Virus record (IMG/VR): IMGVR_UViG_3300023108_000113
Location: 1 to 28,924 of that record
Strand: one strand, 5' to 3'
DNA from: a virus
Length of the DNA: 28,924 nt
The stretch's first letter is position 1, and each line of letters starts with the position of its first letter. Positions 1 to 22,211 of the stretch are shown piece by piece. A model generated the notes under the pieces. The model did not search any database. It was not told the DNA's origin and saw only the letters and a list, made by a program, of their open reading frames with translations. A program made the position numbers and the translations under genes.

Positions 1-352
1 GTCGGAGTTGGAGACGTTGCGGATGTTGGCCAGTGAGGCCAAGGCTACGCTGGCGATCCGTTACACAGCCGGCGCCCACCCGGTGATCTGCCAGTTGGAG
101 ATCCACCGGGGCAACTATGGCCGGCGTACGGCATCGGCGGTGTTCTCTCTGTCGGCGTTGATCAACCGGATCGACAAGTCGATCGCCGACCTCGAAGAGG
201 ACGAACCGAGCGAACTGACCCCGGAGCCGATCACGTGGAAATGCCGGATATGCGGCACCACGGTGACGACTCTCCTCCCGGTGCTGTCCGCACCGACTTG
301 TTCTCGCCACACCGGTGGCGGCAAACTAATGATACAGAAAGCAGGAAAGTAA
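1..352 (+). CDS. Putative zinc-binding protein, 5' end outside window
   Basis: The frame is open back to the first bases of the window, so the true start may lie upstream; the first in-window start is a TTG at 8. The visible protein is about 116 residues. Its C-terminal part has a C-x2-C pair (CRICG) followed after about 16 residues by C-x2-H, which looks like a small zinc-binding knuckle. The N-terminal half has no motif I recognise. It stops one base before the purZ start codon, so it probably belongs to the same operon. Function unknown. The reading frame is well supported by this packing; the zinc site is inference from residue spacing. Confidence 0.6.
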   Translation, partial: SELETLRMLASEAKATLAIRYTAGAHPVICQLEIHRGNYGRRTASAVFSLSALINRIDKSIADLEEDEPSELTPEPITWKCRICGTTVTTLLPVLSAPTCSRHTGGGKLMIQKAGK

Positions 353-353
353 A

Positions 354-1397
354 ATGGCAGGCACGATTTATTGCGTGGTGGGTGGCCAGTATGGCAGCGA
401 GGCAAAAGGCCATGTGGCTGCGCAACTGCACCAGACTAGAAATATCCCGGTTGCTGTCCGGGTGGGCGGCGCAAACGCTGGTCACACGGTGATCGACGAG
501 AACGGTGTCCGGTTCCCGTTGCGCACCATCCCGGTCGCTGCGGCTGTTGACCATGAGGCCGAGTTGGTGATCGCTGCCGGGTCGGAGATCGATCTGCCGG
601 TTTTGTACGCTGAGATCAAGATGTTGGAGGACGCTGGCCACCCGGTGATCGACCGGCTGTTCATCGACAGCGAGGCGACGATCATCGACGACGAGCACAA
701 GCAGCAGGAGACCGATCTGGTCGGCGAGGTTGGTTCGACGGGCAAGGGTATCGGGGCGGCACGTGCGGCTCGGATGCTACGCAAGGCAACCACCGCCCGT
801 GACTCAGTCATCTCGCACACGGGGTGGCTCGCCGATACGTCGGCGATGCTCAACGATCGACACCAGTCTGGCGTGAACATCCTCATCGAGGGCACGCAGG
901 GCTACCACCTAGGGCTACATGCTGGCCACTACCCGCAGTCGACCACCAACGACTGTCGAGCGATCGATGTCATCGCACAGGCTGGTGTCACCCCGTTGAA
1001 CAGGCCGGAGATCTGGCTGGTGTTCCGCACCTATCCGATCCGGGTGGCCGGCAACAGTGGCGAGATGGGCAAAGAGATCTCGTGGGACGTGCTCGAGGGT
1101 CGCAGCGGTGGCTATATCCAGCCGGAGCGTACCACGGTCACCCAAAAGATCCGGCGTGTTGCCGAGTGGGATCACCAAGCAGCCCGTATGGCGATCAACG
1201 GCAACGGTGGCGCAGCAAACGAGAAACTGCACCTTGCGTTGACCATGGTGGACTATCTCGACCCCGATCTGGAAGGCACGATGTTGATGTCCGATATTGA
1301 GGAGCGTGCGATGGCGTGGATTGAACAGGTCGAGGACGAACTCGGCATGTGTTTCTCTGCTTTCGGCACTAGCGCATCGACGATGGTGTTCCGATGA
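354..1397 (+). CDS. purZ: PurZ-type adenylosuccinate synthetase homologue (2-aminoadenine synthesis)
   Basis: The 347-residue protein has the PurA fold signatures: GGQYGSEAKGH at residues 10-20, GGANAGHTV at 38-46 with the catalytic-type His44, STGKG at 128-132, EGTQG at 179-183, and an RTYPIRVAGNSG block near 225-236. In ordinary PurA the first loop reads GDEGKGK and its Asp is catalytic; here that position is Ser15. This substitution marks PurZ of Z-genome phages (S-2L and PhiVC8 type). PurZ condenses dGMP with aspartate, giving N6-succino-2-amino-dAMP, which host PurB turns into dZMP. It is also shorter than the roughly 430 residues of cellular PurA, as phage forms are. A Shine-Dalgarno-like AGGAAAG precedes the ATG. 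The stop overlaps the next gene as ATGA, and that gene is the MazZ candidate. An archaeal-like PurA acting on IMP is the alternative but fits the Ser less well. Confidence 0.9.
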   Translation: MAGTIYCVVGGQYGSEAKGHVAAQLHQTRNIPVAVRVGGANAGHTVIDENGVRFPLRTIPVAAAVDHEAELVIAAGSEIDLPVLYAEIKMLEDAGHPVIDRLFIDSEATIIDDEHKQQETDLVGEVGSTGKGIGAARAARMLRKATTARDSVISHTGWLADTSAMLNDRHQSGVNILIEGTQGYHLGLHAGHYPQSTTNDCRAIDVIAQAGVTPLNRPEIWLVFRTYPIRVAGNSGEMGKEISWDVLEGRSGGYIQPERTTVTQKIRRVAEWDHQAARMAINGNGGAANEKLHLALTMVDYLDPDLEGTMLMSDIEERAMAWIEQVEDELGMCFSAFGTSASTMVFR

Positions 1398-1705
1398 GCC
1401 TGAAACAGTGGTGGATCGCTCAAGCGATGAAAGAGGCCGATGCCACCGTCGCCAAGATGGAAGAATACGGCTCTCGTGATCTGGTCGAGATCGGCCGGAA
1501 GATGTGCGAACTGCAACACAGGGTCGATCCGGTCAGCGATGTCGAGGCTATGGAGATCGGCTGTATGTTCTACCTTTTGGGCAAGGTTGCCCGTGTGACC
1601 TCGGCTGTTGAACGGGGCGAGGTAGCCTCGGACGACACGTGGTTCGATATATCTGTCTATTCAAAAATGGTGCTTTCCGCTAGAGAAGGAGCGTGGAAAC
1701 TGTGA
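1394..1705 (+). CDS. mazZ: MazZ-like (MazG-fold) dGTP/dATP pyrophosphohydrolase candidate
   Basis: This 103-residue, mainly alpha-helical protein overlaps purZ by ATGA and is therefore translationally coupled to it. A helix with E51 and E54 (EAMEIG) is followed by FYLLGKVARV, a loop, and DDTWFDISVY at 80-89 with D81 and D85. This is the two-helix acidic arrangement of all-alpha MazG-type NTP pyrophosphatases, although the classical ExxD is not exact. Known MazZ enzymes hydrolyse dGTP to dGMP, the substrate of PurZ, and also lower dATP. The family call rests on this helix pattern and the neighbour; substrate specificity is inferred from context. The C-terminal GTGA overlap leads directly into the next gene. 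Confidence 0.75.
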   Translation: MSLKQWWIAQAMKEADATVAKMEEYGSRDLVEIGRKMCELQHRVDPVSDVEAMEIGCMFYLLGKVARVTSAVERGEVASDDTWFDISVYSKMVLSAREGAWKL

Positions 1706-1947
1706 ACAATGTAAACAAGGACAACCCGCATCGTGATCGGCTGTTGGCCGAATATCCGCAGCGGCCGTTGTGGATTCCGCCGCCGGGGTTCCCGATCGGC
1801 CGGGCTATCGCCGACGATCAGGTGTTGGCTAACGTCACCGGGCTGACCCGCCATGTGGCGTGGGTCGACGCCGACGGGGTGTCACATATCGAGACGATCG
1901 AGCCTGATCCGGCTCTTCGTGATCTGTACCGTGGGAGGTTGGGGTGA
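1702..1947 (+). CDS. Hypothetical protein, 81 aa
   Basis: I choose the GTG at 1702, which overlaps the mazZ stop as GTGA and sits about 10 bases after a GAGAAGGAG ribosome-binding site at 1683-1691. An in-frame GTG at 1693 is too close to that site. The protein is proline-rich in its first half (PLWIPPPGFPIG) and ends in a charged segment with no recognised motif. It overlaps the following gene by GTGA. Its place between a MazZ candidate and a dUTPase fusion suggests a link to nucleotide metabolism, but that is only guilt by association. Confidence 0.7.
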   Translation: MNNVNKDNPHRDRLLAEYPQRPLWIPPPGFPIGRAIADDQVLANVTGLTRHVAWVDADGVSHIETIEPDPALRDLYRGRLG

Positions 1948-2780
1948 TTGCTTATCTTGCACAGCCGATTGACCGCTCCACGGATGGTGTGACTGCTGGC
2001 CATGCGGTCACTGTGCGCAGCATGCTGTTGGAGGCGGGGCTGACTGTGTTCTCGCCGTATCTGGCGTGGGGTTCGAAGAAACCGCCGCCCTCGAGGGTGC
2101 AGCGGGTCAACGAGTCGGCGTTGCGTGACGCTTCGGTGTTGGTCGTGGTGATGATGGAGGCCGACCATTCGCTTGGTGTGCCGTTCGAGATGGCGTTGGC
2201 TCGTGAGTGGAATATCCCGATGGTGGTGGTGACCGATATCAAACCGGAGAACTCGGTGATCCTGCGCCATTCCGGCGCTTACATCTTCGATCCTCGCTAC
2301 AGGCAGTTTGCTGTCGACAAGGCCTATCAGGTGGCGCTCGGTAAACGTGACCAGCAGATCGCCAAATGGCAGCCGTTGTCGGGTGGTGTCGCACCTCGTG
2401 CAGGGAAAGAGGGCGATGCCGGGTTCGATCTGCATTATTCGGGCAGTGAGCCGTTGACGATCCAACCGGGTGAGATGGTGAATGTTGAGGCCGGTATCGG
2501 TGTTGAGTTCCCGCCGGGTGTGTGGTGTTTGATTCTTGGCCGGTCGTCGACGTTCCAACGTCGGATGTTTGTCGCTCCGTCGGTGATCGATGCCGGCTAC
2601 CGTGGCGAACTGTTCGCCTGTGTACAGAATATCGGCGAGTATTCGCAGACGATCGAGCCGGGTGAGCGGGTCGCACAGATTGTTCCGTTCGATCTGGTGG
2701 CTAACCGGTACCGTTGGATTGAGGGGACGTTGTCTGACTCGGAGCGTGGTGCGACAGGATTTGGGAGTACGGGACGATGA
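1944..2780 (+). CDS. dut: Fusion: nucleoside 2-deoxyribosyltransferase-like domain plus dUTPase
   Basis: The C-terminal half (about residues 148-278) is a complete trimeric dUTPase with all five motifs: DAGFDLH at 158-164, GRSST at 199-203, IDAGYRGEL at 215-223 with catalytic Asp216, PGERVAQIVP at 239-248, and RGATGFGSTG at 268-277. It hydrolyses dUTP to dUMP and pyrophosphate. The N-terminal half (1-140) resembles the nucleoside 2-deoxyribosyltransferase/DNPH1 fold: YLAQPID at the start, a SVLVVVM strand, and GVPFEMALA at 78-86 with Glu82 where these enzymes keep their nucleophile. That half could cleave or exchange the base of a deoxynucleotide; its substrate cannot be read. The GTG start overlaps the previous stop as GTGA, and the stop overlaps the next gene by ATGA. 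The dUTPase is very secure; the N-terminal assignment is moderate. Confidence 0.9.
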   Translation: MIAYLAQPIDRSTDGVTAGHAVTVRSMLLEAGLTVFSPYLAWGSKKPPPSRVQRVNESALRDASVLVVVMMEADHSLGVPFEMALAREWNIPMVVVTDIKPENSVILRHSGAYIFDPRYRQFAVDKAYQVALGKRDQQIAKWQPLSGGVAPRAGKEGDAGFDLHYSGSEPLTIQPGEMVNVEAGIGVEFPPGVWCLILGRSSTFQRRMFVAPSVIDAGYRGELFACVQNIGEYSQTIEPGERVAQIVPFDLVANRYRWIEGTLSDSERGATGFGSTGR

Positions 2781-4288
2781 ACGATTTCAATAGAGACCGT
2801 TGGGGTCGGCCGTTGATTGTCCCGGCTGGCGGTGGGAAACCTGTCGCCTACAGTCGGGTGTCGTCGTATGGCCAGACGTTGGAGAACCAGTTCGGGTTGA
2901 ACAAGTGGAAACAGCGGATGGTGCTGTTGGGTGCGATCAACCGGACAGATCTGATGTCGTTGGCGACCGCTGCGAAAGACGACGACCGGAAACTCGACGG
3001 GTTGGTGCAACAGATGATGGATGCTGGCGGTGCGTCCCGTGCTGCGAACACTGGCACCGCCATCCACGATGTGTTGGCACAGGTTGATGCCGGGACGCTC
3101 GATGCCGGGTCGGTCGCCGATGAGTTTCTCGCACCTGTTCAGGCGTGGCAGACGTTGCTGGACAGTCTCGGTTGGCAGCCGGCACCAGATCTGATCGAGG
3201 TGACAGTGGTGAATGACCGGTTCGAGGCGGCCGGGTCGCTGGATAACATCTGTGTGACGACCGATGGCCGTTGTGTGGTGGTCGACAAAAAGACAGGGAA
3301 GTCGATCGGTAAGCGGCCGTTGGCCTATATGGTGCAGTTGGCGATCTACGCCACCAGCGACATCTACGATATCGCCACCGGGGAACGGCAGCCGCTCGGG
3401 GTTGACACCCGCACTGCCTATATCGCCCATATCCCGGCCGATGGTGGTGAGCCGGCGATGTACGAGGTCGATGTTGAAGAGGGGCTACGGCTGGCCGATC
3501 TGGCTTTCCAAGTGAGACAGGCGGAGCGCTCCGGGGAGCCTCTCGTGCGTCTGACCCCTGCCGACATGCCTCGACCGGCCTCTGACGCAAGGGAAGCCAA
3601 AGGAGAGGCCACCGGAGCCAACCCGGATGCACAGCGTGTCTGGTTGAAGAGCCGGGTGGCCACCATCCTCGGGTACGACACCGGACGAGACCTATTGGGC
3701 GGGTACTGGCCGGCCAACATCCCGAAACTGTCAGCCGATCATGTCTACAGCCAACTGGAGGTCGACGAGATCGTGGCCTGTCTCAACTGGATCGAGACAG
3801 TGTTGGAGGCGCCGTTCGCCGGGGACGACCCGACAAAACCGAAACCGGAACCGCCAAAAACACAGGTGCCGTTGGTCAGGGACAAACCGAAAGAAGGCCG
3901 GCGGGTCAAAGAATCGGACGTGGCAGCACTGCAAACCAAGATCGAATCGCTGCCAGAGGCGCAGCAGGAGATCATCATGCAGATCGCCAAAGAGGCCAAC
4001 AGCGCCGGTGCGTCGATATCGCTCAGACAGCGGCCATCTGTCCGCCGGTTTGAGATCGCACGACTGCTGGTGCAACTAACCAGCGACTGGCCAGATGCTG
4101 ACATCGCCCTCGGGGTGTTGCGCCATCTGACCGGGTTACAATCGGAAACGGCCGGCGATATCGTCGGCTGGCTCACAATCGAGCAGACCGCCACACTGTT
4201 GGAGGCTCTGCCCGAACTCGCCCGCACGGGCGAGATCATCATAAGGCCTGACGGCCAAATGTCCATCAATACAACCAAGGAGAACTAA
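2777..4288 (+). CDS. Cas4/RecB-type PD-(D/E)XK exonuclease with C-terminal extension
   Basis: The 503-residue protein has RecB-family nuclease landmarks: GTAIHDVL with His97, AGSLDN with Asp156, VVDKKTGK with Asp170 and Lys172, and YMVQLAIYA with Gln187. Phage proteins of this type act as DNA exonucleases in recombination and replication. Here the gene is followed by a probable ssDNA-binding protein, a common pairing. After about residue 250 the similarity to the nuclease core ends. Residues 260-279 are encoded by a repeat element also found in inverted orientation at 9021-9078. Residues 335-360 form a Pro/Lys linker, and the last 140 residues are a helical domain I do not recognise. The ATG overlaps the dUTPase stop as ATGA. 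Nuclease family is confident; biological role is inferred. Confidence 0.85.
   Translation: MNDFNRDRWGRPLIVPAGGGKPVAYSRVSSYGQTLENQFGLNKWKQRMVLLGAINRTDLMSLATAAKDDDRKLDGLVQQMMDAGGASRAANTGTAIHDVLAQVDAGTLDAGSVADEFLAPVQAWQTLLDSLGWQPAPDLIEVTVVNDRFEAAGSLDNICVTTDGRCVVVDKKTGKSIGKRPLAYMVQLAIYATSDIYDIATGERQPLGVDTRTAYIAHIPADGGEPAMYEVDVEEGLRLADLAFQVRQAERSGEPLVRLTPADMPRPASDAREAKGEATGANPDAQRVWLKSRVATILGYDTGRDLLGGYWPANIPKLSADHVYSQLEVDEIVACLNWIETVLEAPFAGDDPTKPKPEPPKTQVPLVRDKPKEGRRVKESDVAALQTKIESLPEAQQEIIMQIAKEANSAGASISLRQRPSVRRFEIARLLVQLTSDWPDADIALGVLRHLTGLQSETAGDIVGWLTIEQTATLLEALPELARTGEIIIRPDGQMSINTTKEN
3556..3612 (-). repeat. Inverted copy 1 of a 57-nt repeat element, inside the Cas4-like gene
   Basis: Bases 3581-3612 are the exact reverse complement of 9021-9052 (32 nt), and 3556-3570 are the exact reverse complement of 9064-9078 (15 nt). 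The spacers differ in sequence and are 10 and 11 nt. The element is translated in frame as Cas4-like residues about 260-279, in a linker beyond the nuclease core. Within this copy, read on the - strand, TGCGTC and a downstream GACGCA could pair. It could be a small mobile palindromic element or a functional site; the sequence does not decide. Confidence 0.8.
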
Positions 4289-4289
4289 A

Positions 4290-4691
4290 ATGGACGATTT
4301 CCTATCAACCAGCAACAGCCTGCCAGCGGTGTCATTCCGTGACGTAGGCGACCGTGCAGAGGGTGTGATCACCAACACCCGGAAACTCGAAGATCGAGAC
4401 ATGGACGGCGAACTGCGGACATGGCCAAACGGAGACCCCAAGCACGTTTGGGTGTTCGATCTCGATACCGCTGACGGCGCTGTTGCGGTTTGGGTTCGTG
4501 GCAATATGGTTACCGCCATCAAAGAGGCAGCGGCCAAGGCCAAGGTCTCAACGATGATCGGCTCGAAACTCACCATCGAACATCACGCTCTCGGTGAGCC
4601 AGCGAAGAAGGGCTACAACGCCCCGAAACTGTACCGGGCAAAGATGGAAGCAGGGCAGGCCGCCAGCGACGGCGACGGCGACTGGCTCTGA
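4290..4691 (+). CDS. Putative single-stranded DNA-binding protein
   Basis: The 133-residue protein starts at an ATG 8 bases after an AAGGAG site, one base beyond the nuclease stop. The central part alternates beta-type strands (WVFDLDTADG, AVAVWVRGNM, KLTIEHHAL), consistent with an OB-like fold. The last residues are a glycine/aspartate tail ending in DWL. SSB proteins end in a similar acidic tail with a hydrophobic tip that docks partner enzymes. The neighbours, a Cas4/RecB-type nuclease upstream and a resolvase-like nuclease and primase-polymerase downstream, fit a replication or recombination role. No clear sequence family is recognised, so this is a structural and contextual guess. Confidence 0.5.
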   Translation: MDDFLSTSNSLPAVSFRDVGDRAEGVITNTRKLEDRDMDGELRTWPNGDPKHVWVFDLDTADGAVAVWVRGNMVTAIKEAAAKAKVSTMIGSKLTIEHHALGEPAKKGYNAPKLYRAKMEAGQAASDGDGDWL

Positions 4692-4697
4692 CAGTCG

Positions 4698-4756
4698 ATG
4701 CCGGTCTGGAGTCCAATCTATCAGAGGGTTGGTTGTAGGGTGCTCCAGACCGGTAT
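4698..4756 (+). terminator. Large two-part hairpin after the ssDNA-binding gene (attenuator or structured leader)
   Basis: CCGGTCTGGAG at 4701-4711 pairs perfectly with CTCCAGACCGG at 4743-4753, and the stem extends three more pairs outward with one G-T. Within the 31-nt loop, CCAATC (4713-4718) can pair with GGTTGG (4727-4732). No run of T follows, so a classical Rho-independent terminator is doubtful. It may stabilise the upstream mRNA end or act as a leader of the next small gene, whose ribosome-binding site starts about 10 bases downstream. Confidence 0.5.
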
Positions 4757-4780
4757 CACCCATTTCGAGAGGGGACAGAT

Positions 4781-4933
4781 ATGGCTTTGAAGATAACGGT
4801 ATCCGCTAACACTGCACGTCTGATGTGCTACTATTTGAGGCGTGTGGTGCCACGTGGGGCTGAGGAGGCCGCCCAACTGTCGTCGATCATCGACGAACTG
4901 GAACGTATAGCCAATGGTGCTGTACAGCGGTGA
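4781..4933 (+). CDS. Small hypothetical protein, 50 aa
   Basis: An ATG at 4781 follows a GAGAGGGG ribosome-binding site at 4766-4774 and opens a 50-codon frame to the TGA at 4931. The product begins MALKITVSANTARLMCYYL and continues into a charged amphipathic helix (EEAAQLSSIIDELERIA). No family is recognised. It overlaps the start of the WhiB gene by 20 bases. The good ribosome-binding site and coupling to WhiB support it as a real gene. Confidence 0.6.
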   Translation: MALKITVSANTARLMCYYLRRVVPRGAEEAAQLSSIIDELERIANGAVQR

Positions 4934-5306
4934 TTGGATGGCGGACGCCGCCTGCAAGTCGCCGGGCAAACCGTGGAATCCGAAATTCTTGGAGGCTATC
5001 GGGGTTGAGATGGGGCTGGCTCGACAAGACTACTGTAGGAACATCTGCGAGTCATGCCCTGTCTACCTCGACTGCCACCGGTGGGTGTTCTTCACCCGGC
5101 CTGACCCGTCTGCGCATATGTTTGCTGCCGGGTTGACGTACCGGCAGCGGCGCAGATGGCGACACTACTGTGAGGATCACGGGAGACCGGTCGAGTTGCC
5201 ACCGGCCTGCGGCACGATCTCCCGCTATATAGCGGTAGAATGTCGATGTGACGATTGCAAGAGGGCTGCAGGTGAAGCGGTAGATGGCGAACAGCAACAA
5301 ACGTAA
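4914..5306 (+). CDS. WhiB-family iron-sulfur transcriptional regulator
   Basis: Wbl proteins are actinobacterial and actinophage regulators that bind a [4Fe-4S] cluster and act with the host sigma factor. The 130-residue protein has the Wbl opening DWMADAAC with Cys14, then Cys45-x2-Cys48-x5-Cys54. The usual G[VI]WGG turn is absent: the corresponding stretch reads AAGLTYRQRRRW at 71-82, still followed by a basic helix. The C-terminus adds CGTISRYIAVECRCDDC with Cys99, 110, 112 and 115, a second possible metal site often seen as a tail on actinophage proteins. I use the ATG at 4914 because the next ATG would delete the DW of the domain. It overlaps the small gene upstream and the nuclease gene downstream. 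Family assignment is firm; targets are unknown. Confidence 0.9.
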   Translation: MVLYSGDWMADAACKSPGKPWNPKFLEAIGVEMGLARQDYCRNICESCPVYLDCHRWVFFTRPDPSAHMFAAGLTYRQRRRWRHYCEDHGRPVELPPACGTISRYIAVECRCDDCKRAAGEAVDGEQQQT

Positions 5307-5619
5307 AGGGAGCGCTGCCGAGTTGGCGGTCGCCCGGTGGCTTGCCGCCAACGGCTGGCCAGATGCCGAACGTCGCTATGACGCTGGCCGGCATGACGAC
5401 CGAGGCGACATCCGTGGGATACCCGGTGTGACGTTAGAGGTGAAGAACCACCAGCGGCTCGATCTGGCTGGCTGGCTGCGAGAGTTGGCGGCAGAGATGG
5501 AGAACGACGGCACCGATATCGGCGCTGTCGTAGTGAAGAAGAGAGGAACAACCGATGTCGGCCAGTGGTACGCTGTGCTGCCGATGGAGGTTTTGATCCG
5601 CATACTACCTGAAGACTAG
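5284..5619 (+). CDS. Hjc-like PD-(D/E)XK endonuclease (Holliday junction resolvase type)
   Basis: The 111-residue size and motif order match small resolvase-like nucleases: KGSAAELAVARWL with Glu13, RGDIRGIPG with Asp42, LEVKN with Glu52 and Lys54, then a GAVVVKKRGT strand and a YAVLPME strand. Such enzymes cut branched DNA made during phage recombination and before packaging. The start lies 23 bases inside the WhiB gene, showing tight coupling. A non-resolvase PD-(D/E)XK endonuclease such as a VRR-NUC type is the alternative. Confidence 0.8.
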   Translation: MANSNKRKGSAAELAVARWLAANGWPDAERRYDAGRHDDRGDIRGIPGVTLEVKNHQRLDLAGWLRELAAEMENDGTDIGAVVVKKRGTTDVGQWYAVLPMEVLIRILPED

Positions 5620-5628
5620 AGGAACAAA

Positions 5629-7485
5629 ATGAGCGAAACTGCCGCCTACAAAGAGGCGTCAAGGTTGGCACGCTATGGCTGGCGTGTCGTCCCGATCGTG
5701 CCGGGTGAGAAACGGCCATCGATGAAAGGCTGGCAACATGCCGCCACCAACAGCCAAAAAACGATCGACAACTGGTGGAAAGGGATCTACCGGTCGCACG
5801 GCCTCGGTGTCGCCACCGGTGCGCAGCCCAATGGCCAAAACCTCATCGTCATCGACATCGACGAACACGGCGAATCCGGCACAGCCACCATGGCTGCGCT
5901 GGTTGAGAAACACGGCGCACTGCCCGAAACCTTAGAGGTCGAGACCGGGAACAACGGCCGCCACATCTACCTGTTGGCACCACCCGAGTTAGAGGTACGG
6001 AACGATGCCGGGCGGGCGCTCGGTGTCGGTATCGACATCCGTGGTGACGGCGGCCAAGTGTTGGCACCACCGACCGTCCACCCGAACGGCACCCCGTACC
6101 GGTGGGCAGAGGGCAGATCGCCAGATGAGTGTACGCCGAAACCAGCGCCACGTTGGTTGCTCGACGCTATCGCCAAGAAAGACGTGGCACCACCCACCAC
6201 CACGTTGAGCAACGACGGCAACGACTCGCCTGCCGCTCGGTACAACCAGCGGACGACGTGGGACGGGCTGCTGTCTGCCGACGGCTGGACGTTGGTGAGG
6301 ACAGATGGCGACGGCGAGCAACACTGGACACGGCCGGGCAAACAGGGTCGTGACGGGACGTCGGCCACGGTCGGCTACCGTGGGCAGGACGTGCTGGTGG
6401 TGTTCACTTCGAGCGTGCCTTGGCTGCCGCCCGGTGCCTATAGCCGGTTTGGCTACTACGCATGTCGCCATCACAACGGTGACCGCAGCGAAGCGGCTCG
6501 TACGCTTCTCCGGGAGGAACACCCGACCACAGCGGCGGAAACACCTGACACCGAGTCGGACACTGACCGTGACCTACTGTCGATGTTGATTGACTGGCCG
6601 ACTTTCTGGTCGCAGGATCACAGTGTGGCCGAGTGGTTGGCTGAGCCGTTGATCGCCGAGCACAGGGCGCACGCCATTTTCGCTCCGGGTGGCACTGGTA
6701 AGAGCCTGTTGGCGTTGTGGCTGGCCGCAGCGGTGGCCACTGGCACGCCGATCTTTGGCCATGCTGGTCGGCCTCGATGTGTGCTGTATCTCGACTATGA
6801 GATGACTGGTGATGACCTGTCGGAACGGTTGGTCGGTATGGGCTATGGTGCGGAGCACGATCTGTCGAATCTCCGCTATGCGTTGTTGCCGTCGCTGTCG
6901 TCGCTCGACGGTGAAGAGGGCGGCCGGCAGGTGCAACGTTTGGCTCGGCTGGTTGGCGCCGAGTTGGTGGTGATCGACACTTTCGGCCGGGCGGTGTCTG
7001 GCGATGAGAACGATGCGGACACGGTGCGGTCGTTCTACCGTCACACTGGCTATCTGTTGAAGCAGGACGGTGTTGCGTCGGTCAGGATCGACCATGCTGG
7101 TAAGAATCTGGAGAAGGGGCAGCGTGGGTCGTCGGCGAAGAATGACGACGTGGATATCGTGTGGGAGATGACCAAGCGTGGCGACCGGTTCGTGTTGAAG
7201 ACCCGGAAGGCTCGCATGGGGTGGGTGCCGCAGCAGATCACGTTGGCGATGTCGGATGAGCCGATCGTCTACCGGTTGGTGACTGATGGTGTGTCGGATT
7301 CGAAGGTGGCCGAGTGTCTCGATGCGTTGCAGGATCTCGATATCGACCCGGAGTTGTCTGAGCGGAAGGTGGCGGCGCTGGTCAGGGATCATGGGTTGAA
7401 GATCGGGTCGGATGCTTTGCGGGTGGCGTTGCGTAGTTACCGGCAGCAGATGGCGGGCGACGGTTTGGACTCATACCTGCTCTGA
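5629..7485 (+). CDS. Primase-polymerase fused to RecA-like (RepA-type) ATPase/helicase
   Basis: The 618-residue protein has an N-terminal Prim-Pol domain of the archaeo-eukaryotic primase superfamily: DID at 76-78 (metal ligands), GNNGRHIYL with Arg111-His112, and GIDIRGDGGQVLAPP at 134-148. Residues about 205-295 form a linker domain typical of actinobacterial homologues. The C-terminal half is a RecA-like hexameric ATPase: GGTGKS at 354-359, YLDYEM at 387-392, LVVID at 446-450, His489 and GSSAK at 500-504. It should make primers, may extend DNA, and unwinds the fork. It is the only polymerase candidate in the window. An ATG after GAGGAAC, 10 bases past the nuclease stop, gives the start. 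The stop lies 6 bases before the 28-bp palindrome. Families are secure; whether it is the main replicase is inference. Confidence 0.9.
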   Translation: MSETAAYKEASRLARYGWRVVPIVPGEKRPSMKGWQHAATNSQKTIDNWWKGIYRSHGLGVATGAQPNGQNLIVIDIDEHGESGTATMAALVEKHGALPETLEVETGNNGRHIYLLAPPELEVRNDAGRALGVGIDIRGDGGQVLAPPTVHPNGTPYRWAEGRSPDECTPKPAPRWLLDAIAKKDVAPPTTTLSNDGNDSPAARYNQRTTWDGLLSADGWTLVRTDGDGEQHWTRPGKQGRDGTSATVGYRGQDVLVVFTSSVPWLPPGAYSRFGYYACRHHNGDRSEAARTLLREEHPTTAAETPDTESDTDRDLLSMLIDWPTFWSQDHSVAEWLAEPLIAEHRAHAIFAPGGTGKSLLALWLAAAVATGTPIFGHAGRPRCVLYLDYEMTGDDLSERLVGMGYGAEHDLSNLRYALLPSLSSLDGEEGGRQVQRLARLVGAELVVIDTFGRAVSGDENDADTVRSFYRHTGYLLKQDGVASVRIDHAGKNLEKGQRGSSAKNDDVDIVWEMTKRGDRFVLKTRKARMGWVPQQITLAMSDEPIVYRLVTDGVSDSKVAECLDALQDLDIDPELSERKVAALVRDHGLKIGSDALRVALRSYRQQMAGDGLDSYLL

Positions 7486-7491
7486 CTTGTC

Positions 7492-7519
7492 GAAGATTAT
7501 TGTAATTACAATAATCTTC
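7492..7519. promoter_or_regulatory. Perfect 28-bp AT-rich palindrome, operator candidate copy 1
   Basis: The half site GAAGATTATTGTAA is followed directly by its exact reverse complement. Such an AT-rich perfect palindrome stands out in this GC-rich sequence. It ends 5 bases before a -35-like box. A near copy at 20214-20241 has the same 40-base distance to its start codon. This points to a dimeric regulator binding site. A terminator for the upstream gene is less likely because the stem is AT-rich and no T tract follows. Confidence 0.8.
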
Positions 7520-7524
7520 TGATG

Positions 7525-7559
7525 TTGTCTTGGCTTGTCCGATCTGGTAAAATTTAAAT
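7525..7559 (+). promoter_or_regulatory. Promoter of the 7560-8998 unit, probably leaderless
   Basis: TTGTCT at 7525-7530 and TAAAAT at 7548-7553 are separated by 17 bases and resemble -35 and -10 boxes. Only 6 bases separate the -10 box from the ATG at 7560, so transcription should begin at or next to the start codon. There is no ribosome-binding site, as expected for a leaderless mRNA. Box identity is by eye. Confidence 0.7.
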
Positions 7560-7868
7560 ATGAGCAAAACACACAACACCAACAACACATTCCACACCGA
7601 CGGCGTCATCAGCAACCCGATCAGCGGCGACCTCTACGAAATCATGGAGGAAATCGGCATCGAGCCACGCTACGCACAGACCGGCGACGAGGGCAGCACC
7701 TACGCATGGGCAGTCGACGGCGACCGCTACCGCCTCGTATGGGAGACCAACGCCGACGGCGAGTTTTTCACCATCTACCACGAGGGCGTCCACATCGCCG
7801 ACGGCACCGGCAGCGCCGATGACATGGTGCGTGCATTCCTCGGCGACGAGGACTGGATGCCAGCCTGA
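7560..7868 (+). CDS. Hypothetical protein, 102 aa, apparently leaderless
   Basis: The protein is acidic and mixed alpha/beta, with a stretch reading YAWAVDGDRYRLVWE and then GEFFTIYHEG. No domain is recognised. The start is the first ATG and lies 6 bases after the -10 box. Codons end strongly in C, and TTG leucine, frequent in the neighbouring operons, is missing. This resembles the other small genes of this unit and the gene at 20282. First position behind a regulated promoter suggests an early function, but the sequence does not show which. Confidence 0.75.
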   Translation: MSKTHNTNNTFHTDGVISNPISGDLYEIMEEIGIEPRYAQTGDEGSTYAWAVDGDRYRLVWETNADGEFFTIYHEGVHIADGTGSADDMVRAFLGDEDWMPA

Positions 7869-7876
7869 TCTCCGAC

Positions 7877-7906
7877 TTGACTGATATTGTCCGCATAGTA
7901 TAAAAT
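7877..7906 (+). promoter_or_regulatory. Second promoter in front of the 7946 gene
   Basis: TTGACT at 7877-7882 is followed by TATAAA at 7899-7904 (16-base spacer) or TAAAAT at 7901-7906 (18-base spacer). The leader of about 35-40 bases carries AAAGGAAC, a conventional ribosome-binding site before the ATG at 7946. The palindrome is absent here, so this promoter is probably regulated differently from the one at 7525. Confidence 0.55.
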
Positions 7907-7945
7907 ATAAGTACCAAATCAACCAAACCAAAAGGAACCAATAAA

Positions 7946-8380
7946 ATGAGCAAGCCAAAGTACACAGTCACCCTGCCAGACGGAAGCGTCGTCACCCGCC
8001 GCACCGAGCGCACCTACAGCCACGTGATCGTCTCACACTACGACACCGAGAAGGCCATCGCCGACGCCACCAACAGCCTCAACAACTGCGAAGCCAGCCT
8101 CGCCCGCTACATGGACAATCTCGTCGCTGCGGAGACCGACCGGGACGCCAACAACGCCCGTATCGACATCGCTGATGCACAAAACCGGCTCGGCAAGATC
8201 CAAGCCGAGATCGCTCGCCTGAAGACCACCGGCCTCGGCAAGTCGTGGGTGCTCGCATGGTGCGGCCGTCCAGATCTCGCACAGAAGAAGATCGAATCGA
8301 TGCGGTCGCAAGCCCGCCGCAACGGCTACGACGACCTGCCCGGCGTCACAGCGATCGAGGTTGAGGAGATCGCACGATGA
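7946..8380 (+). CDS. Hypothetical helical protein, 144 aa
   Basis: After a short beta segment (KYTVTLPDGSVVTRR), residues about 35-95 form a long charged helix with a heptad-like pattern, probably coiled coil. The C-terminal part contains KSWVLAWCGRPDLAQKK. No family is recognised. An AAAGGAAC site precedes the ATG, and the stop overlaps the next gene as ATGA. Codon use is C-ending like its neighbours. Confidence 0.75.
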   Translation: MSKPKYTVTLPDGSVVTRRTERTYSHVIVSHYDTEKAIADATNSLNNCEASLARYMDNLVAAETDRDANNARIDIADAQNRLGKIQAEIARLKTTGLGKSWVLAWCGRPDLAQKKIESMRSQARRNGYDDLPGVTAIEVEEIAR

Positions 8381-8568
8381 GCACCCTCACCCGCACGGTG
8401 CAGGCAGACATCGACCGGGTGGCCACACTGGCCACTCAGGTCGGTGCCGCCGCCAACGCCGGCGACCTGCAAGAACTGACCAACCACCTGCGCTGCCTCA
8501 AAGCCGCAGTGTCACTACTCCGGCTCGACGCCTCACACCTCTACCACGAACAGGAACCAACACAATGA
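8377..8568 (+). CDS. Hypothetical helical protein, 63 aa
   Basis: This short, predicted all-helical protein (TVQADIDRVATLATQVGAAA and then a second amphipathic helix) overlaps its neighbours on both sides by ATGA. It lacks Trp and has one Cys. The tight coupling supports it as real; no function can be suggested. Confidence 0.65.
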   Translation: MSTLTRTVQADIDRVATLATQVGAAANAGDLQELTNHLRCLKAAVSLLRLDASHLYHEQEPTQ

Positions 8569-8795
8569 GCGACTACCTAGCAGAACTACGGCGCCCCATC
8601 CTCGCCGACCGAGAGCAATATCTGGTCGTCTGTTATTCAACACCTGACGACTGGAGAGTCTTCAGGGGTTGGGTCAGGCTGTCCAAAGACGGCCTGACAG
8701 TCAGCGCCCGGAAGCCTCACGGCCGGCGCTGGTTCCGACTGTGCAAAACCGAACATGTGGTGTCGAGCCGCATGCTCGATTGGGCGCAGCGATGA
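8565..8795 (+). CDS. Hypothetical protein, 76 aa
   Basis: The ATG at 8565 overlaps the previous stop, which fixes the start although the same frame is open further upstream. The product is basic with several Trp (DDWRVFRGWVRL and GRRWFRLCK), suggesting a small beta-rich fold. No family is recognised. The stop overlaps the next gene as ATGA. Confidence 0.65.
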   Translation: MSDYLAELRRPILADREQYLVVCYSTPDDWRVFRGWVRLSKDGLTVSARKPHGRRWFRLCKTEHVVSSRMLDWAQR

Positions 8796-8998
8796 CTAAC
8801 ACAATCCCCATCGGGGTCGCACACCAGATCCGGGCAGCGAAAGAACGCACCCGGCAACGCCAGATGGCATTCCTCGGCGAGGCGCTGGCCGCCGTCGCAG
8901 CGGGCAACCTCGACCGGCTCGGTGACGTGGTCACCCAATGCCGGCTGTTGGGACTGAACCCGGACGAGGTACTAGCCCACCCATCGTCGAGCAGGTAG
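8792..8998 (+). CDS. Hypothetical protein, 68 aa
   Basis: The ATG overlaps the previous stop. The protein is helical and basic near its N-terminus (HQIRAAKERTRQRQ), then ALAAVAAGNLDRL and a C-terminal helix. It is the last gene of the rightward left-arm block and ends 23 bases before the structured element in the convergent gap. Function unknown. Confidence 0.65.
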   Translation: MTNTIPIGVAHQIRAAKERTRQRQMAFLGEALAAVAAGNLDRLGDVVTQCRLLGLNPDEVLAHPSSSR

Positions 8999-9020
8999 AC
9001 ACCCTCCCCGTCTGCTTTCC

Positions 9021-9108
9021 GTGGCCTCTCCTTTGGCTTCCCTTGCGTCAGAACCCCATCTGGGGCATGTCGGCAGGGTTCGGGGCTTCCCGACCAAAGG
9101 AGAGCCAC
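9021..9108. repeat. Copy 2 of the repeat element, forming a large hairpin between convergent genes
   Basis: Bases 9021-9078 are the second copy of the element found inverted at 3556-3612. GTGGCCTCTCCTTTGG at 9021-9036 pairs with CCAAAGGAGAGCCAC at 9094-9108 with a single bulge. Inside, CCCC (9054-9057) faces GGGG (9062-9065), and GAACCC (9051-9056) could alternatively pair with the later GGGTTC. The gap 8999-9133 separates converging transcripts, so it may also serve as a two-way terminator, although no T tracts are seen. Nothing else is visible in the gap. Confidence 0.7.
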
Positions 9109-9133
9109 GCTCGACACGATTGGAACGGGCTGC

Positions 9134-10138
9134 TCAATCGAGCCACACCAGATGCGATCCCGTCACCCGACCAGCCGCCGGATCAACAAAATGCAGACGC
9201 TGCGACGGCTGCCCTCGAGCCGCTACGAACTCCGCCGCATAGGCATTCTCTGATTCCGGCGACCCCGTCACATATATCTGGCCACCGTTGGCCATCGTCA
9301 AAGTCATCGGAGTGTGGAAATGACCCATATAGACATCGTGGAACGGCTCCACCACCCCGGTAGCCCACGAGTTGGCCTTCCGCAAGATACCGAATGCCGG
9401 AGTGTTGCCACCGAACGATTTGATCTCGTCGCCGTGAACAAGCAACGCCCGATATTCGCCAACCTCAACAATCTGGTACCAATCGGCCGAGGTTCTCCAC
9501 GTCACATCGGCAACATCGGCGAACCTGTCGCCAGCGATCCGGTACGCCATCCGGTCGATGTTGTCCCCGGCCGGGTTCTCGCCCTTCCTACCGATACGAC
9601 CATGGTTGCCGTACTCGCAGATCACATCGACCGCATCGAAGTCGGCTAACAGCCGGCGGATGAACTGCTCCATCAACCCGGCACAGGCAAACAACTGCTC
9701 GAACAGATGTGCCTCAACCTCCCACGCCTGACCGGGAAAGATCGAAATGCCCTCGACCATGTCACCACCGAACATGACTGTGGCGGTCGACACCGGATGG
9801 TCGGCACGCTGTACCGCCACAATCCGACAGATCTCCTCGGCGAACGCCATGATCCGCTGCTCGCATGTGGCGATGTCGTAGCCGCTGGTCATCTTCCCCA
9901 TCTGCCAGTCGGTGGCGTGGATCAACGCCACCTCGGCACCGGCACGTTTCCGGGTTTTAGGTTGCCGTTTGACCGGTGGCGCAGCGCCCACCGCCAGCCC
10001 GGCGTCACGTGCCGCATCGTAGACAGCATCGATGAAAGCCGCCGTTTTCCGTTTGGCGGTGGCTGTTGCCCGCTGTTGGCGTTGTAACGCTGCCCGCAGT
10101 TGAGCGATCTCTTCCGCTTGGTCGAACTCTTCGATCAT
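9134..10138 (-). CDS. Calcineurin-like metallophosphoesterase
   Basis: The 334-residue protein starts at the ATG that overlaps the HTH gene stop as ATGA. An N-terminal coiled-coil-like segment is followed by the metallophosphoesterase motifs in order: ATDWQ near residue 75, GGDMVEG near 124, YGNHGR in the middle, LVHGDE, and GHFHTP near the end. These bind two metals and hydrolyse phosphoesters; phage members resemble DNA-repair nucleases of the SbcD/Mre11 superfamily. The first motif has Gln where many members have His. It is the last gene of the leftward late transcript, after the lysis genes. Substrate is unknown; a nuclease role is the best guess. Confidence 0.85.
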   Translation of the reverse strand: MIEEFDQAEEIAQLRAALQRQQRATATAKRKTAAFIDAVYDAARDAGLAVGAAPPVKRQPKTRKRAGAEVALIHATDWQMGKMTSGYDIATCEQRIMAFAEEICRIVAVQRADHPVSTATVMFGGDMVEGISIFPGQAWEVEAHLFEQLFACAGLMEQFIRRLLADFDAVDVICEYGNHGRIGRKGENPAGDNIDRMAYRIAGDRFADVADVTWRTSADWYQIVEVGEYRALLVHGDEIKSFGGNTPAFGILRKANSWATGVVEPFHDVYMGHFHTPMTLTMANGGQIYVTGSPESENAYAAEFVAARGQPSQRLHFVDPAAGRVTGSHLVWLD

Positions 10139-10368
10139 AGATCTGCCGCTCTTCTCCAGTTGTTGACCAGATGAATACTGATCGGGTAGCCCCATCCGGT
10201 GAGCACTTTGCTGACCGCAGGCGCTGTGTACGTCCGATCTGCCAGTGCTTGGCGGGCTGCTGCAGCCCGCTCCGGGTTGTTGACGTCGAGATCTTCAAAC
10301 ATCATCTCGATGTTCGACTTGCGTTTCTTTTTGGTGTTGGCATTGTCGAATGCTGACATATCGGGCAT
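10135..10368 (-). CDS. Small helix-turn-helix protein, 77 aa
   Basis: A perfect AGGAGG precedes the ATG. The N-terminus is basic (KKKRKSN), and the C-terminal half (ALADRTYTAPAVSKVL, then PISIHLVNNWRR) reads as a helix-turn-helix: a turn between two short helices ending in a basic recognition helix. It overlaps the metallophosphoesterase by ATGA, so the two are made together. It could regulate transcription or guide its partner to DNA. The fold is inferred from sequence pattern only. Confidence 0.6.
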   Translation of the reverse strand: MPDMSAFDNANTKKKRKSNIEMMFEDLDVNNPERAAAARQALADRTYTAPAVSKVLTGWGYPISIHLVNNWRRAADL

Positions 10369-10391
10369 GGGAGCCTCCTATGGGTAGTTGG

Positions 10392-10589
10392 TCAGTCTTT
10401 GTGTGCGTGCCAGTCGATGTGGCTGTCCAATCGGCCGTCGATCTTGTCCACTTTGCTGTCGATCTGCCTCAGCATATGGGCGTTTCTGCCGTGGTCACGG
10501 TTGTTCTCCCGACGCATCTTTTCGATCAGAGCGACAAGAACACCGCCGGGAGCGACAACCGCTAGCAGGATGGCAGACCAGATGGGCAT
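10392..10589 (-). CDS. Membrane-anchored coiled-coil protein in the lysis cassette
   Basis: The 65-residue protein has one N-terminal membrane segment (SAILLAVVAPGGVLVALI) followed by a charged coiled coil (MLRQIDSKVDKIDGRLDSHI). This matches the small DUF2746-like proteins often found beside holins in actinophages. It overlaps the holin candidate by one base. It probably assists or times lysis. A gap of 23 bases separates it from the HTH gene. Confidence 0.65.
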   Translation of the reverse strand: MPIWSAILLAVVAPGGVLVALIEKMRRENNRDHGRNAHMLRQIDSKVDKIDGRLDSHIDWHAHKD

Positions 10590-10801
10590 TACCGTTTGAA
10601 CGCCTGCTCGATTTCTTCCGCTGTCAGTTTGCCGTCTTTATAGCCGACGGCCAGCGCTTGGACGATGGTGAGCACGGCGATCGCACCGGACATGATCGCT
10701 GATTGCCACAGGGCTACGTCGACGAGGGTGCCGACGAGTACGTTGGGGATCGCTGCGGCTACGAATGATGCCACTAGCCGTTTGATGATTGTGAGGGTCA
10801 T
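10589..10801 (-). CDS. Holin candidate
   Basis: The 70-residue protein has two hydrophobic segments (about residues 9-26 and 32-52) and a charged C-terminal tail (DGKLTAEEIEQAFKR). This is the usual plan of small two-segment holins that open the membrane for the endolysin. It lies downstream of the endolysin and next to two other small membrane proteins, any of which could be the holin or its antagonist. Role is from topology and context. Confidence 0.65.
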   Translation of the reverse strand: MTLTIIKRLVASFVAAAIPNVLVGTLVDVALWQSAIMSGAIAVLTIVQALAVGYKDGKLTAEEIEQAFKR

Positions 10802-10959
10802 TTGTCCTCCGATATTAGTTGGGATATGGCGAAGATCACCACTGACACGACCGAGATGGCCGTGGCGATGTTTTTTGTGCTGCCGGACAGGGTGATGATG
10901 ACCAACAGCAGACCTCCGGCCATGATGGCTGTTTCGAGGAGTGTGCGCAGGTATTTCAT
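10798..10959 (-). CDS. Small two-segment membrane protein, 53 aa
   Basis: The frame from the ATG at 10957-10959 to the TGA at 10798-10800 gives a 53-residue product with two hydrophobic helices (ETAIMAGGLLLVIITLSG and ATAISVVSVVIFAISQLI). It overlaps the Thr-rich gene upstream and the holin candidate downstream, both by ATGA. It is likely a second holin, antiholin or other lysis accessory. Short length is the main reason for caution. Confidence 0.65.
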   Translation of the reverse strand: MKYLRTLLETAIMAGGLLLVIITLSGSTKNIATAISVVSVVIFAISQLISEDK

Positions 10960-12020
10960 CGTGTCCGTCGTTTGGCGGCTATGGTTGGTGTGCCGCTTAT
11001 CAGGACAAAGCCTACAGTAACCGTGCGTCGGGTGCTAACTGGTACGGTGGAGCCGACCGGTATGTAGTTGTCATAGCCGGGTGTCGAGTAGATATCGACC
11101 TGCTCCTCGAACTGTTGTTTTTCCTCGTCGGGTGCGTCGTTAGGTGGCGGTGGTGGGTTTGTTGTTGTCGGTTCTGTCGTCGGTTCTGTCGTTGTTGAGG
11201 CGGTCGTGGCGACAACCGTAGGTGCGACAGTAGATGCCGCAGTTGTGGTGGATGGCCGGGTTGTAGTGGTTGGCGGTGCCGTTGTTGTCGATGACGATGT
11301 TGTCGTCGGTGATGACGTAGTAGTCGGCGGTTGGGTGGTGGCGGGGATTGTGGTGGTAGGTACGGTGGTGGTCGTCGTAGATGGGGCAGTTGTCGTCACC
11401 GGTGCAGGTGCCGAGGTGGTTGTCGTTGTTGATGTCGATGTTGTTGCCTCCGTGGTTGTGGTGGGTGGCACCGTGGTGGATGTTGTCGAGGTGGTGGTCG
11501 AGGTGGTGGTCGAGGTCGTGGTGGTTGTCGAGGTGGTCGATGTCGTGGTGGTGGTGGTCGATGTCGAGGTGGTGGTGGTTGTCGAGGTGGTGGCGATAGC
11601 CACATCGCTCACCAACTCATACACCCCACCCTCATACCCTAGCCCCTGCTGCTGCGGATAGTAACCAGCCCGGAGCCGGTAGCCACCGGCATCCAGCACC
11701 ATGTAGATCTTGGCCGACACACACTGGCCAACTCCAAGATTCGAGTCGTCGTCATAGGCAACCAGCAGGCCGCTGTCGTCGTACAACCACAGATATGGGT
11801 CAGCACCCGGCTCCTCGCAGTCCCGGTTGCTGTTGCCGTAGATCACCACCAATGTCTGGTCGGCCTCTACCGTGAACCACCAATCGGACTCGGCTGTTAC
11901 CTCGACCGACCCGGCCGCTGCCGGACTGGCCACCACTAGCAGACAGAGCGACCCGAGTAACGCTTGACAGGCTGTGAGTAGCCGGCGTCTGTTCAGGCGT
12001 GTTTTTGCAGCGCTGCCCAC
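10956..12020 (-). CDS. Secreted threonine-rich, mucin-like surface protein
   Basis: The 354-residue product (GTG start) has a clear signal peptide: basic N-terminus, LLGSLCLLVVA, and an ASPAAA cleavage site near residue 36. Residues 37-140 look like a beta-sandwich of the PPC type (DPYLWLYDDSG and DAGGYRLRAG) with Cys68 and Cys100 placed for a disulfide. Residues 144-288 are almost only Thr and Ser with some Pro and Ala, a stalk likely to be O-glycosylated. The end has a weak hydrophobic stretch followed by KRRTR, which could anchor it in the membrane; no LPXTG is seen. It overlaps the endolysin gene by 28 bases. Superinfection exclusion, a surface decoy or a lysis role are all possible. Confidence 0.75.
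   Translation of the reverse strand: MGSAAKTRLNRRRLLTACQALLGSLCLLVVASPAAAGSVEVTAESDWWFTVEADQTLVVIYGNSNRDCEEPGADPYLWLYDDSGLLVAYDDDSNLGVGQCVSAKIYMVLDAGGYRLRAGYYPQQQGLGYEGGVYELVSDVAIATTSTTTTTSTSTTTTTTSTTSTTTTTSTTTSTTTSTTSTTVPPTTTTEATTSTSTTTTTSAPAPVTTTAPSTTTTTVPTTTIPATTQPPTTTSSPTTTSSSTTTAPPTTTTRPSTTTAASTVAPTVVATTASTTTEPTTEPTTTNPPPPPNDAPDEEKQQFEEQVDIYSTPGYDNYIPVGSTVPVSTRRTVTVGFVLISGTPTIAAKRRTR
11157..11591 (-). repeat. Low-complexity ACC/ACG-type codon repeat tract
   Basis: This stretch encodes the Thr/Ser tract of the secreted protein. On the + strand it reads as GTGGTTGTCGAGGTGG-like units with drifting period. It is likely to expand and shrink by slippage, and it creates a long valine-rich false frame on the other strand. 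Confidence 0.85.
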
Positions 12021-20213: not shown

Positions 20214-20241
20214 GAAGATTATTGTAATTGCAACAATCTTC
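20214..20241. promoter_or_regulatory. 28-bp palindrome, operator candidate copy 2
   Basis: The left half is identical to copy 1 (GAAGATTATTGTAA). The right half differs at two positions (TTGCAACAATCTTC). It lies between divergent genes, 43 bases from the connector start and 40 bases from the ATG at 20282. The same distance applies in copy 1. It cannot serve here as terminator of an upstream + gene, which supports an operator role. Confidence 0.8.
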
Positions 20242-21093: not shown

Positions 21094-21562
21094 TATCAGC
21101 AGGTCTCCGCTGGACATCGATCTGTATGTCGACGAACCCGGTGTCGTGCAACCAATCGAACAGGTCGGATTTGTCGATGTTGGCGTAGTGTTCGCCCTCT
21201 CTCAGCCGGTTGCCATCGACAGCCGAATGCGGAGGTCTGCCCACCCCGGCAGCGGTACCGATGAACTCGCCACCGGGTGTCAACATCTCGAACGCTGCCG
21301 CCACAATGTCGGCGGCTCTCGGTGTGTGCTCCAACATCTCGGTGGTGACGACACATTCGACCGGTTCTTCCGGTCGGTATTCGGCCGCATCGCACACGAC
21401 ATCGACCCCATCGCCGGGTGCGATATCGACAGCGATATAGAGGTCGCAGCCGATGGTGTCTCGGGTGGTGCCGTTGACGTTGCGCCCTCCGAGATCGATG
21501 ACTGTGCCATATGTTTTGTTTCGGGTTTGGTAGGCCACCCACTGCATGGCTTCAGGATGCAT
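21062..21562 (-). CDS. Class I SAM-dependent methyltransferase
   Basis: The 166-residue protein has TVIDLGGRN (SAM-binding motif I region), a YIAVDIAPGDGVDVVCDAA acidic strand, VVTTEMLEHTPRAAD (motif IV-like), and LTPGGEFIGTAA. This is a Methyltransf_11-type fold. With the two glycosyltransferases it likely methylates a sugar or other small group. It overlaps the upstream glycosyltransferase by 11 bases. Target unknown; DNA methylation is unlikely because no DPPY-like motif is present. Confidence 0.8.
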   Translation of the reverse strand: MHPEAMQWVAYQTRNKTYGTVIDLGGRNVNGTTRDTIGCDLYIAVDIAPGDGVDVVCDAAEYRPEEPVECVVTTEMLEHTPRAADIVAAAFEMLTPGGEFIGTAAGVGRPPHSAVDGNRLREGEHYANIDKSDLFDWLHDTGFVDIQIDVQRRPADIRWIARRPGI

Positions 21563-22211
21563 ATGCTCTGCGTCTCCTTTGGAATCGTATCCGGTCTATG
21601 TCCATCTGTTGTTGCGCTATACGATAGATCCGGTCTTGTTTGGCTTTGCCCCACACCGGGTGCAGATGTTCAACGATCGCATCTGGTGCGTAGACAAACG
21701 CACCCGCCTGTTTGGCCACTGTTGACCATTCGTCGTCGACGAAACAATGCCCGTATCCTTCGTGGCACAAGGTGTCTGCTCCATCCCATGAGGCTCCGTT
21801 GGTTTTGACCCATGTGCGTCTAAATATCGGGTGCACGGCGTGTTCGCCACGTCGCACCCGGCTGTTGCCGAGGTCGTTGGTTGAGATCAGACCAGCGTCG
21901 GGGTAGAGGTCGATGCTGGCCTCGACCCATCCGGGGTGGAAATGGACGTCGTCGCCGCACAGCATGATCCATGGTGAGTCCGTCAACCGATAGCCGAGGT
22001 TGGCTTTCACCGGGAATGTTTTCCTGTCTCTGTCCCAATTGAGTATCACGTCGGCGTTGTGCCGTTCGAGCGCCCACAGTTGGGCGGTGTCATCTGCATC
22101 GGCCACGAATACCAACTCGGCTCGGTCGGTGCTGGCTTGCAGCGATTCGATCAACGGTGCCACGTTGTGTGCTCGTTCTCTAACAGGGACGATGATAGAT
22201 ATTTCAGCCAT
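21552..22211 (-). CDS. Family 2-like glycosyltransferase
   Basis: The 219-residue GT-A protein starts ISIIVPVRERAHNVAPLIE, then VFVADADD, and has LCGDDVHFHPGW, where GDD is the nucleotide-sugar/metal motif. Later DEWSTVAKQAG may carry the catalytic Asp-Glu. It has no membrane segment. It overlaps the previous gene by 8 bases. It probably glycosylates a virion protein, given its place in the head operon, although a surface-modifying role is possible. Confidence 0.85.
   Translation of the reverse strand: MAEISIIVPVRERAHNVAPLIESLQASTDRAELVFVADADDTAQLWALERHNADVILNWDRDRKTFPVKANLGYRLTDSPWIMLCGDDVHFHPGWVEASIDLYPDAGLISTNDLGNSRVRRGEHAVHPIFRRTWVKTNGASWDGADTLCHEGYGHCFVDDEWSTVAKQAGAFVYAPDAIVEHLHPVWGKAKQDRIYRIAQQQMDIDRIRFQRRRRAYAS

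Follow-up and report, generated by a model that had tools for sequence, protein, structure and literature searches.

A predicted Z-DNA module of a small uncultured phage combines PurZ0 with an apparently undescribed partner family, M103, in a subclade in which no DpoZ was found

Results

A PurZ0-type module in a small phage

We consider it likely that the phage fragment analysed here carries a Z-DNA module of the PurZ0 type, in which enzymes acting on the dNTP pool, and not a selective polymerase, exclude adenine. Within the limits of fragmentary contigs, the searched members of the subclade to which it belongs are devoid of the Z-specific polymerase DpoZ, which nearly all known Z-phages have. 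This recurrent absence of DpoZ is the new part, along with the protein family termed M103 here; the core enzymes were already known. The window, by which we mean the whole stretch of DNA analysed, corresponds to a 28,924-base IMG/VR record, classed as linear, from an uncultured phage. Judged from its genes, the presence of 2-aminoadenine (Z) in the DNA of this phage is a reasonable expectation. The following features are discussed below:

354..1397, + strand: purZ0, 347 aa, ATG start, predicted succino-2-amino-deoxyadenylate synthase with Ser15 in GGQYGSEAKG
1394..1705, + strand: M103, 103 aa, ATG start, predicted four-helix protein, PurZ0 partner and distant DUF6378 relative
1693..1947, + strand: 84-aa ORF between M103 and dmtZ-dutZ
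1944..2780, + strand: fused DmtZ-DutZ, N-terminal NDT-like domain and C-terminal dUTPase-like domain
2777..4288, + strand: PD-(D/E)XK exonuclease of the replication/recombination module (phrog_466, 2.4e-56)
4290..4691, + strand: 133-aa conserved replication-module protein (phrog_1911)
5284..5619, + strand: RusA-like Holliday junction resolvase family protein (phrog_244, 2.9e-25)
5629..7485, + strand: PrimPol (AEP primase-polymerase) fused to a RecA-like AAA helicase (Pfam Prim-Pol 6.9e-42, AAA_25 3.6e-28)

The phage is small, about 32-33 kb, and probably infects actinobacteria. An actinophage, as originally proposed, is plausible because the window encodes a WhiB-like protein (4914-5306; PF02467, 23.2 bits, slightly below the Pfam cut-off) and because the relatives of its terminase are mostly from actinophages. 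Megablast of window positions 1-12000 against phages gave no match. A sister contig (G001) of 32,266 bases (32.3 kb) shares 95-97% identity with the window along most of its sequence and less in the tail-gene region. Short repeats at window positions 7487-7582 and 20214-20241 are common to intergenic sites of the sister, including 2611-2705 and 23673-23766, and are perhaps promoters or operators. Elsewhere in the window, a gene for a mucin-like, Thr/Ser-rich protein whose start is signal-like (10956-12020, - strand) adjoins a peptidoglycan-binding lysin gene, and a family 2 glycosyltransferase gene (21552-22211, - strand) adjoins the capsid genes.

The first gene of the module encodes a PurZ0-type PurZ

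ORF 354-1397 encodes a homologue of adenylosuccinate synthetase (Pfam Adenylsucc_synt, 7.8e-39) that matches phrog_1211, '2-aminooxy adenylosuccinate synthetase' (6.3e-80), and reaches 307.9 bits against the NCBIfam PurZ model NF038379, a margin of just 8 bits over the curated cut-off of 300. Alignment with E. coli PurA bore out the original prediction that Ser15 stands in place of the catalytic Asp (Asp13 of PurA). The accompanying statement that all other signature blocks are retained is broadly right, as His41, Lys16, Asn38, Gly40, Thr129, Arg143, Gln224, Thr239 and Arg305 are kept, but positions 300, 303, 331, 414 and 416 differ from PurA, with Arg303 changed to Lys and Lys331 to Met; these five positions differ in other PurZ as well. 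The solved structure closest to the window protein is 7vf6. Comparison with the sister contig indicated purifying selection (pN/pS 0.26), with local divergence around residues ~145-160.

Serine by itself was rejected as proof of PurZ, since PurA paralogues of bacterial chromosomes commonly carry it at position 13 too, in a search whose pattern favours Ser. Replacement of Asp13 by Ser is necessary, not sufficient, for PurZ. In a quick PurA/PurZ tree, whose sole PurA outgroup is a very long and distant branch, the window protein was placed in a phage PurZ0 clade of 87 rows (SH-aLRT 99) and, within it, in a subclade of 12 rows (SH-aLRT 99), separate from the bacterial groups of Ser paralogues. 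The 135 rows of this tree, which the original prediction had suggested as a check, comprise E. coli PurA, PurZ of S-2L, phiVC8 and SH-Ab 15497, six cultured actinophage proteins, 79 IMG/VR proteins and 45 paralogues from bacterial and archaeal genomes. Model cut-off, tree position and gene context thus support the assignment of ORF 354-1397 as a PurZ0-type PurZ, in agreement with the earlier identification. Neither PurZ nor M103 gave a defence match in PADLOC.

The Ser-type PurA paralogues are themselves widespread in bacterial chromosomes (loci L145-L224, e.g. L160:5193-7345 and L182:8046-9980). Among 80 such loci, 52-56 have an upstream gene for a ~645-aa RNase_H_2/DUF429/AAA_18 protein and a downstream gene for a ~365-aa protein, and DUF7002 lies near 18. 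The bacterial protein had no PADLOC match; these loci perhaps represent an undescribed nucleotide or defence operon.

M103 is linked to PurZ0 and is not recognizable as MazZ

The second ORF, 1394-1705, shares the ATGA overlap with purZ that had been noted originally. All 78 testable loci, some of which had gone into the profile itself, had a match to the M103 profile directly downstream of purZ. When M103 alone served as query against IMG/VR, 26 loci were retrieved, all 26 with a Ser-PurZ gene no more than 1 kb upstream. Because of this linkage we regard M103 as a dedicated partner of PurZ0. Outside Arthrobacter hosts, almost every PurZ0 phage examined has M103 after purZ. Cultured examples are Ghobes, Galactica, Goodman, Olihed and Parvaparticeps, in which M103 is the C-terminal part of the product of the gene after purZ, annotated as hypothetical (gp51 in Ghobes); in the window, M103 is a stand-alone gene of 103 aa. 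Compared with the sister contig this gene has accumulated eight synonymous and no nonsynonymous changes, in keeping with purifying selection.

The original prediction of a MazG-like protein, taken as MazZ, did not hold. M103 had no match to PF03819, and Foldseek comparison with E. coli MazG gave a TM of 0.32 at rmsd 13. DUF550 (PF04447) was absent and did not match M103, in a search in which the controls S-2L and SH-Ab 15497 were positive. DUF5664 was rejected at an hhalign probability of 0.2%, and there was no profile similarity to MazZ-1 of the S-2L type and no similarity to the phiVC8 MazZ-2 protein. Furthermore, the ExxE...ExxD/E metal-binding signature, represented in S-2L MazZ by E35, E38, E50 and E53 (PMC8342488), is absent from the invariant M103 residues, which are W7, K21, Y25, G34, E54, K64, R67, D81, D85, Y89 and R97.

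The AlphaFold2 model of M103 consists of four helices (pLDDT 95.6), and a model of DUF6378 (PF19905), of lower confidence, has the same helix layout. Profile comparison of the two by hhalign (E 1.4e-5, probability 80%) aligned the stretch SDDTWFDISVY of M103 with YDDSWKDIAGY of DUF6378. The Pfam gathering score of DUF6378 was not reached, and one of 37 M103 members matched it, with an E of 0.078. In a viral library, Foldseek with M103 as query retrieved its own family first, followed by weak DUF6378 and nucleotide-modification-associated matches; against the PDB, neither the M103 model nor the DUF6378 model gave a significant fold match, and at sequence level the M103 profile had no PDB match either. 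No homologue was found among characterised proteins. Sequence comparison and models together suggest a four-helix fold for M103 and a distant relationship to DUF6378. DUF6378 proteins such as Salmonella phage Akira gp58 have the YG, KxxR and DD(S/T)WxDIxxY motifs and the four-helix layout in common with M103, but the single case examined had no PurZ linkage. The family is apparently undescribed and, having no Pfam model, invisible to Pfam-based surveys.

In Arthrobacter phage Joann, a DUF5664 (PF18909) gene lies directly after purZ and M103 is absent, while none of the 50 records searched (window and related contigs) contained DUF5664 in a search that was positive in Arthrobacter phages. The Wayne DUF5664 protein is a hydrolase of dATP, dGTP and dUTP (PMC12884076). 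Given the shared slot after purZ, M103 may act similarly, a suggestion from position.

A fused DmtZ-DutZ accompanies PurZ0 and M103

The gene at 1944-2780, which had been missing from the original prediction, matched Pfam dUTPase (1.9e-18) and, weakly, Nuc_deoxyrib_tr, and has the architecture called DmtZ-DutZ in Wayne. The DmtZ residues Tyr6, Asp12, Pro57, Asn77 and Glu103 (Ghobes numbering) are all kept, and the residue aligned with Trp124, the proposed DmtZ lid, is Tyr. In homologues, dATP and dGTP yield monophosphates, and dAMP yields adenine or, when Z base is present, dZMP (PMC12884076). This chemistry would provide a source of dGMP for PurZ without MazZ, and the DutZ domain is a likelier supplier of dGMP than a MazZ. 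DatZ was absent, and no lyase gene (PurB) was found in the window phage. The 84-aa ORF between M103 and dmtZ-dutZ is 96% identical in the sister contig, had only weak matches elsewhere, and is not convincing as a conserved component of the module.

PrimPol is the only polymerase domain found

The PrimPol-helicase fusion contains the AEP motifs DID (76), GRH (110) and IDIRGD (135) and the Walker A motif GGTGKS (354), and is strongly conserved relative to the sister contig (pN/pS 0.017). No other polymerase domain was detected in the window or in the sister. DNA_pol_A (PF00476) was detected in none of the ten records searched from the 12-row subclade (the window and nine contigs), and models of PolB and PolIII alpha likewise found no match in these records. 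Upstream of purZ, where the cultured PurZ0 phages examined have their DNA polymerase I gene, the sister contig has small genes only. The sister ends between an HNH gene and a TerS-like ORF, and in another relative, G002, HNH, TerS-like ORF and TerL are contiguous, which leaves little room for a hidden polymerase gene. Two genes beside the PrimPol of G002 (L115, L116), which also has PurZ, resemble by eye those for a cytosine methylase and a further DNA methylase (383-1246 and 32106-32957 in oriented coordinates).

A further group of PurZ0 contigs, 32-35 kb long, was also without DNA_pol_A. Most of these have a lyase-family gene, PF00206 in G015, G019, G024, G034 and G039, possibly purB. Prim-Pol is present in nearly all PurZ0 contigs that lack DNA_pol_A. 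Mapped on the PurZ0 tree, presence or absence of DpoZ requires at least five changes, where the contigs are fragments and absence from them is not proof.

Discussion

Among cultured phages, the PurZ0 actinophages resemble the window in having PurZ0, DutZ and DmtZ, fused as DmtZ-DutZ in Wayne, and Ghobes shares the M103 domain. Unlike the window, they encode a DNA polymerase I (DpoZ), and the Arthrobacter phages have DUF5664 where the window has M103. The PurZ enzymes of phiVC8 and SH-Ab 15497 likewise carry Ser in place of Asp13 but belong to the PurZ clade with a GST loop, in contrast to the GSE loop of the window's PurZ0, and these phages possess DatZ, MazZ-2 or DUF5664-DUF550, and DpoZ. S-2L, according to PMC8342488 the one Z-phage that lacks a PolA polymerase, is like the window in its Ser-PurZ, in the lack of PolA and in PrimPol as sole phage polymerase domain (PMC8065100, PMC8342488); removal of dATP by a phage hydrolase is a further likeness, proposed for the window from homologues. 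It differs in combining PurZ with DatZ and MazZ-1, compared to PurZ0 with DmtZ-DutZ and neither DatZ nor MazZ, and its PrimPol has a VirE/SF3-like C-terminus instead of the RecA-like AAA_25. Within the limits of fragments, replication in the window phage is S-2L-like, with PrimPol present and PolA absent, but as DatZ is absent the phage is not of the S-2L cluster.

By analogy with these relatives, PurZ0 would join dGMP and aspartate to dSMP, which host PurB and kinases would convert to dZTP; host PurB is invoked because no lyase gene was found. DutZ would hydrolyse dATP to dAMP and dGTP to dGMP, removing the competitor and feeding PurZ, and DmtZ would destroy dAMP or move its deoxyribose-5-phosphate onto free Z base. 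M103, as obligatory small partner of PurZ0, would most likely be a further nucleotide-pool enzyme; our guess is a dATP/dGTP pyrophosphohydrolase replacing the DUF5664 enzyme of Arthrobacter Z-phages. Replication would be carried out by PrimPol, the host polymerase or both; PrimPol may only prime, with synthesis by the host replicase. Since neither is expected to prefer Z, adenine would be kept out by the emptied dATP pool. In S-2L, PrimPol does not discriminate between A and Z, and DatZ removes dATP (PMC8065100, PMC8342488). That a lineage of small PurZ0 phages dropped its Z-selective polymerase and makes Z-DNA through dATP-emptying DutZ, DmtZ and the new enzyme family M103 could well be right, but we propose it tentatively.

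It is quite possible, although we lean the other way, that M103 is a subunit or regulator of PurZ0, or acts on a later step (dSMP or dZMP), and is not a dNTP-pool enzyme. Its near one-to-one linkage to PurZ0 would fit such a function, hydrolysis of dATP and dGTP is already covered by DutZ in relatives (PMC12884076), and the invariant K64, R67, D81, D85 and Y89 would suit more than one function; yet Arthrobacter PurZ0 phages manage without M103 and have DUF5664 instead. A true MazZ, in which the 103-aa protein would be a MazG-fold dGTPase feeding PurZ, would agree with its small size, its helical model and its place beside purZ, where mazZ lies in known Z-clusters (PMC8342488), and exchange with DUF5664 in this slot fits a similar role. 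The negative profile searches against MazG, DUF550, MazZ-1 and MazZ-2 and the poor superposition on E. coli MazG nevertheless make this reading highly improbable.

We give equally little credence to the view that the protein is a bacterial-type Ser paralogue with another substrate and that the phage DNA is normal: the frequency of Ser at position 13 among bacterial paralogues speaks for it, but the window protein lies in the phage PurZ0 clade, away from the bacterial groups, together with DmtZ-DutZ and M103, and the bacterial copies sampled have other neighbours. A DpoZ in unassembled sequence, which would make replication ordinary for a Z-phage, is conceivable as all contigs are classed as linear and lack a completeness estimate, and as the cultured PurZ0 phages examined carry such a gene. 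It is nonetheless unlikely, since the sister contains the corresponding upstream flank of purZ, the remaining junctions are covered by contigs with different break points, and the absence is repeated across the subclade.

We therefore favour exclusion of adenine through the nucleotide pool. If this is true, the DpoZ changes on the PurZ0 tree would make pool control alone a recurrent solution, and more DpoZ-less lineages would make polymerase selectivity versus pool control testable by comparison. For the construction of Z-DNA in other hosts, M103 could be the component that has been missing.
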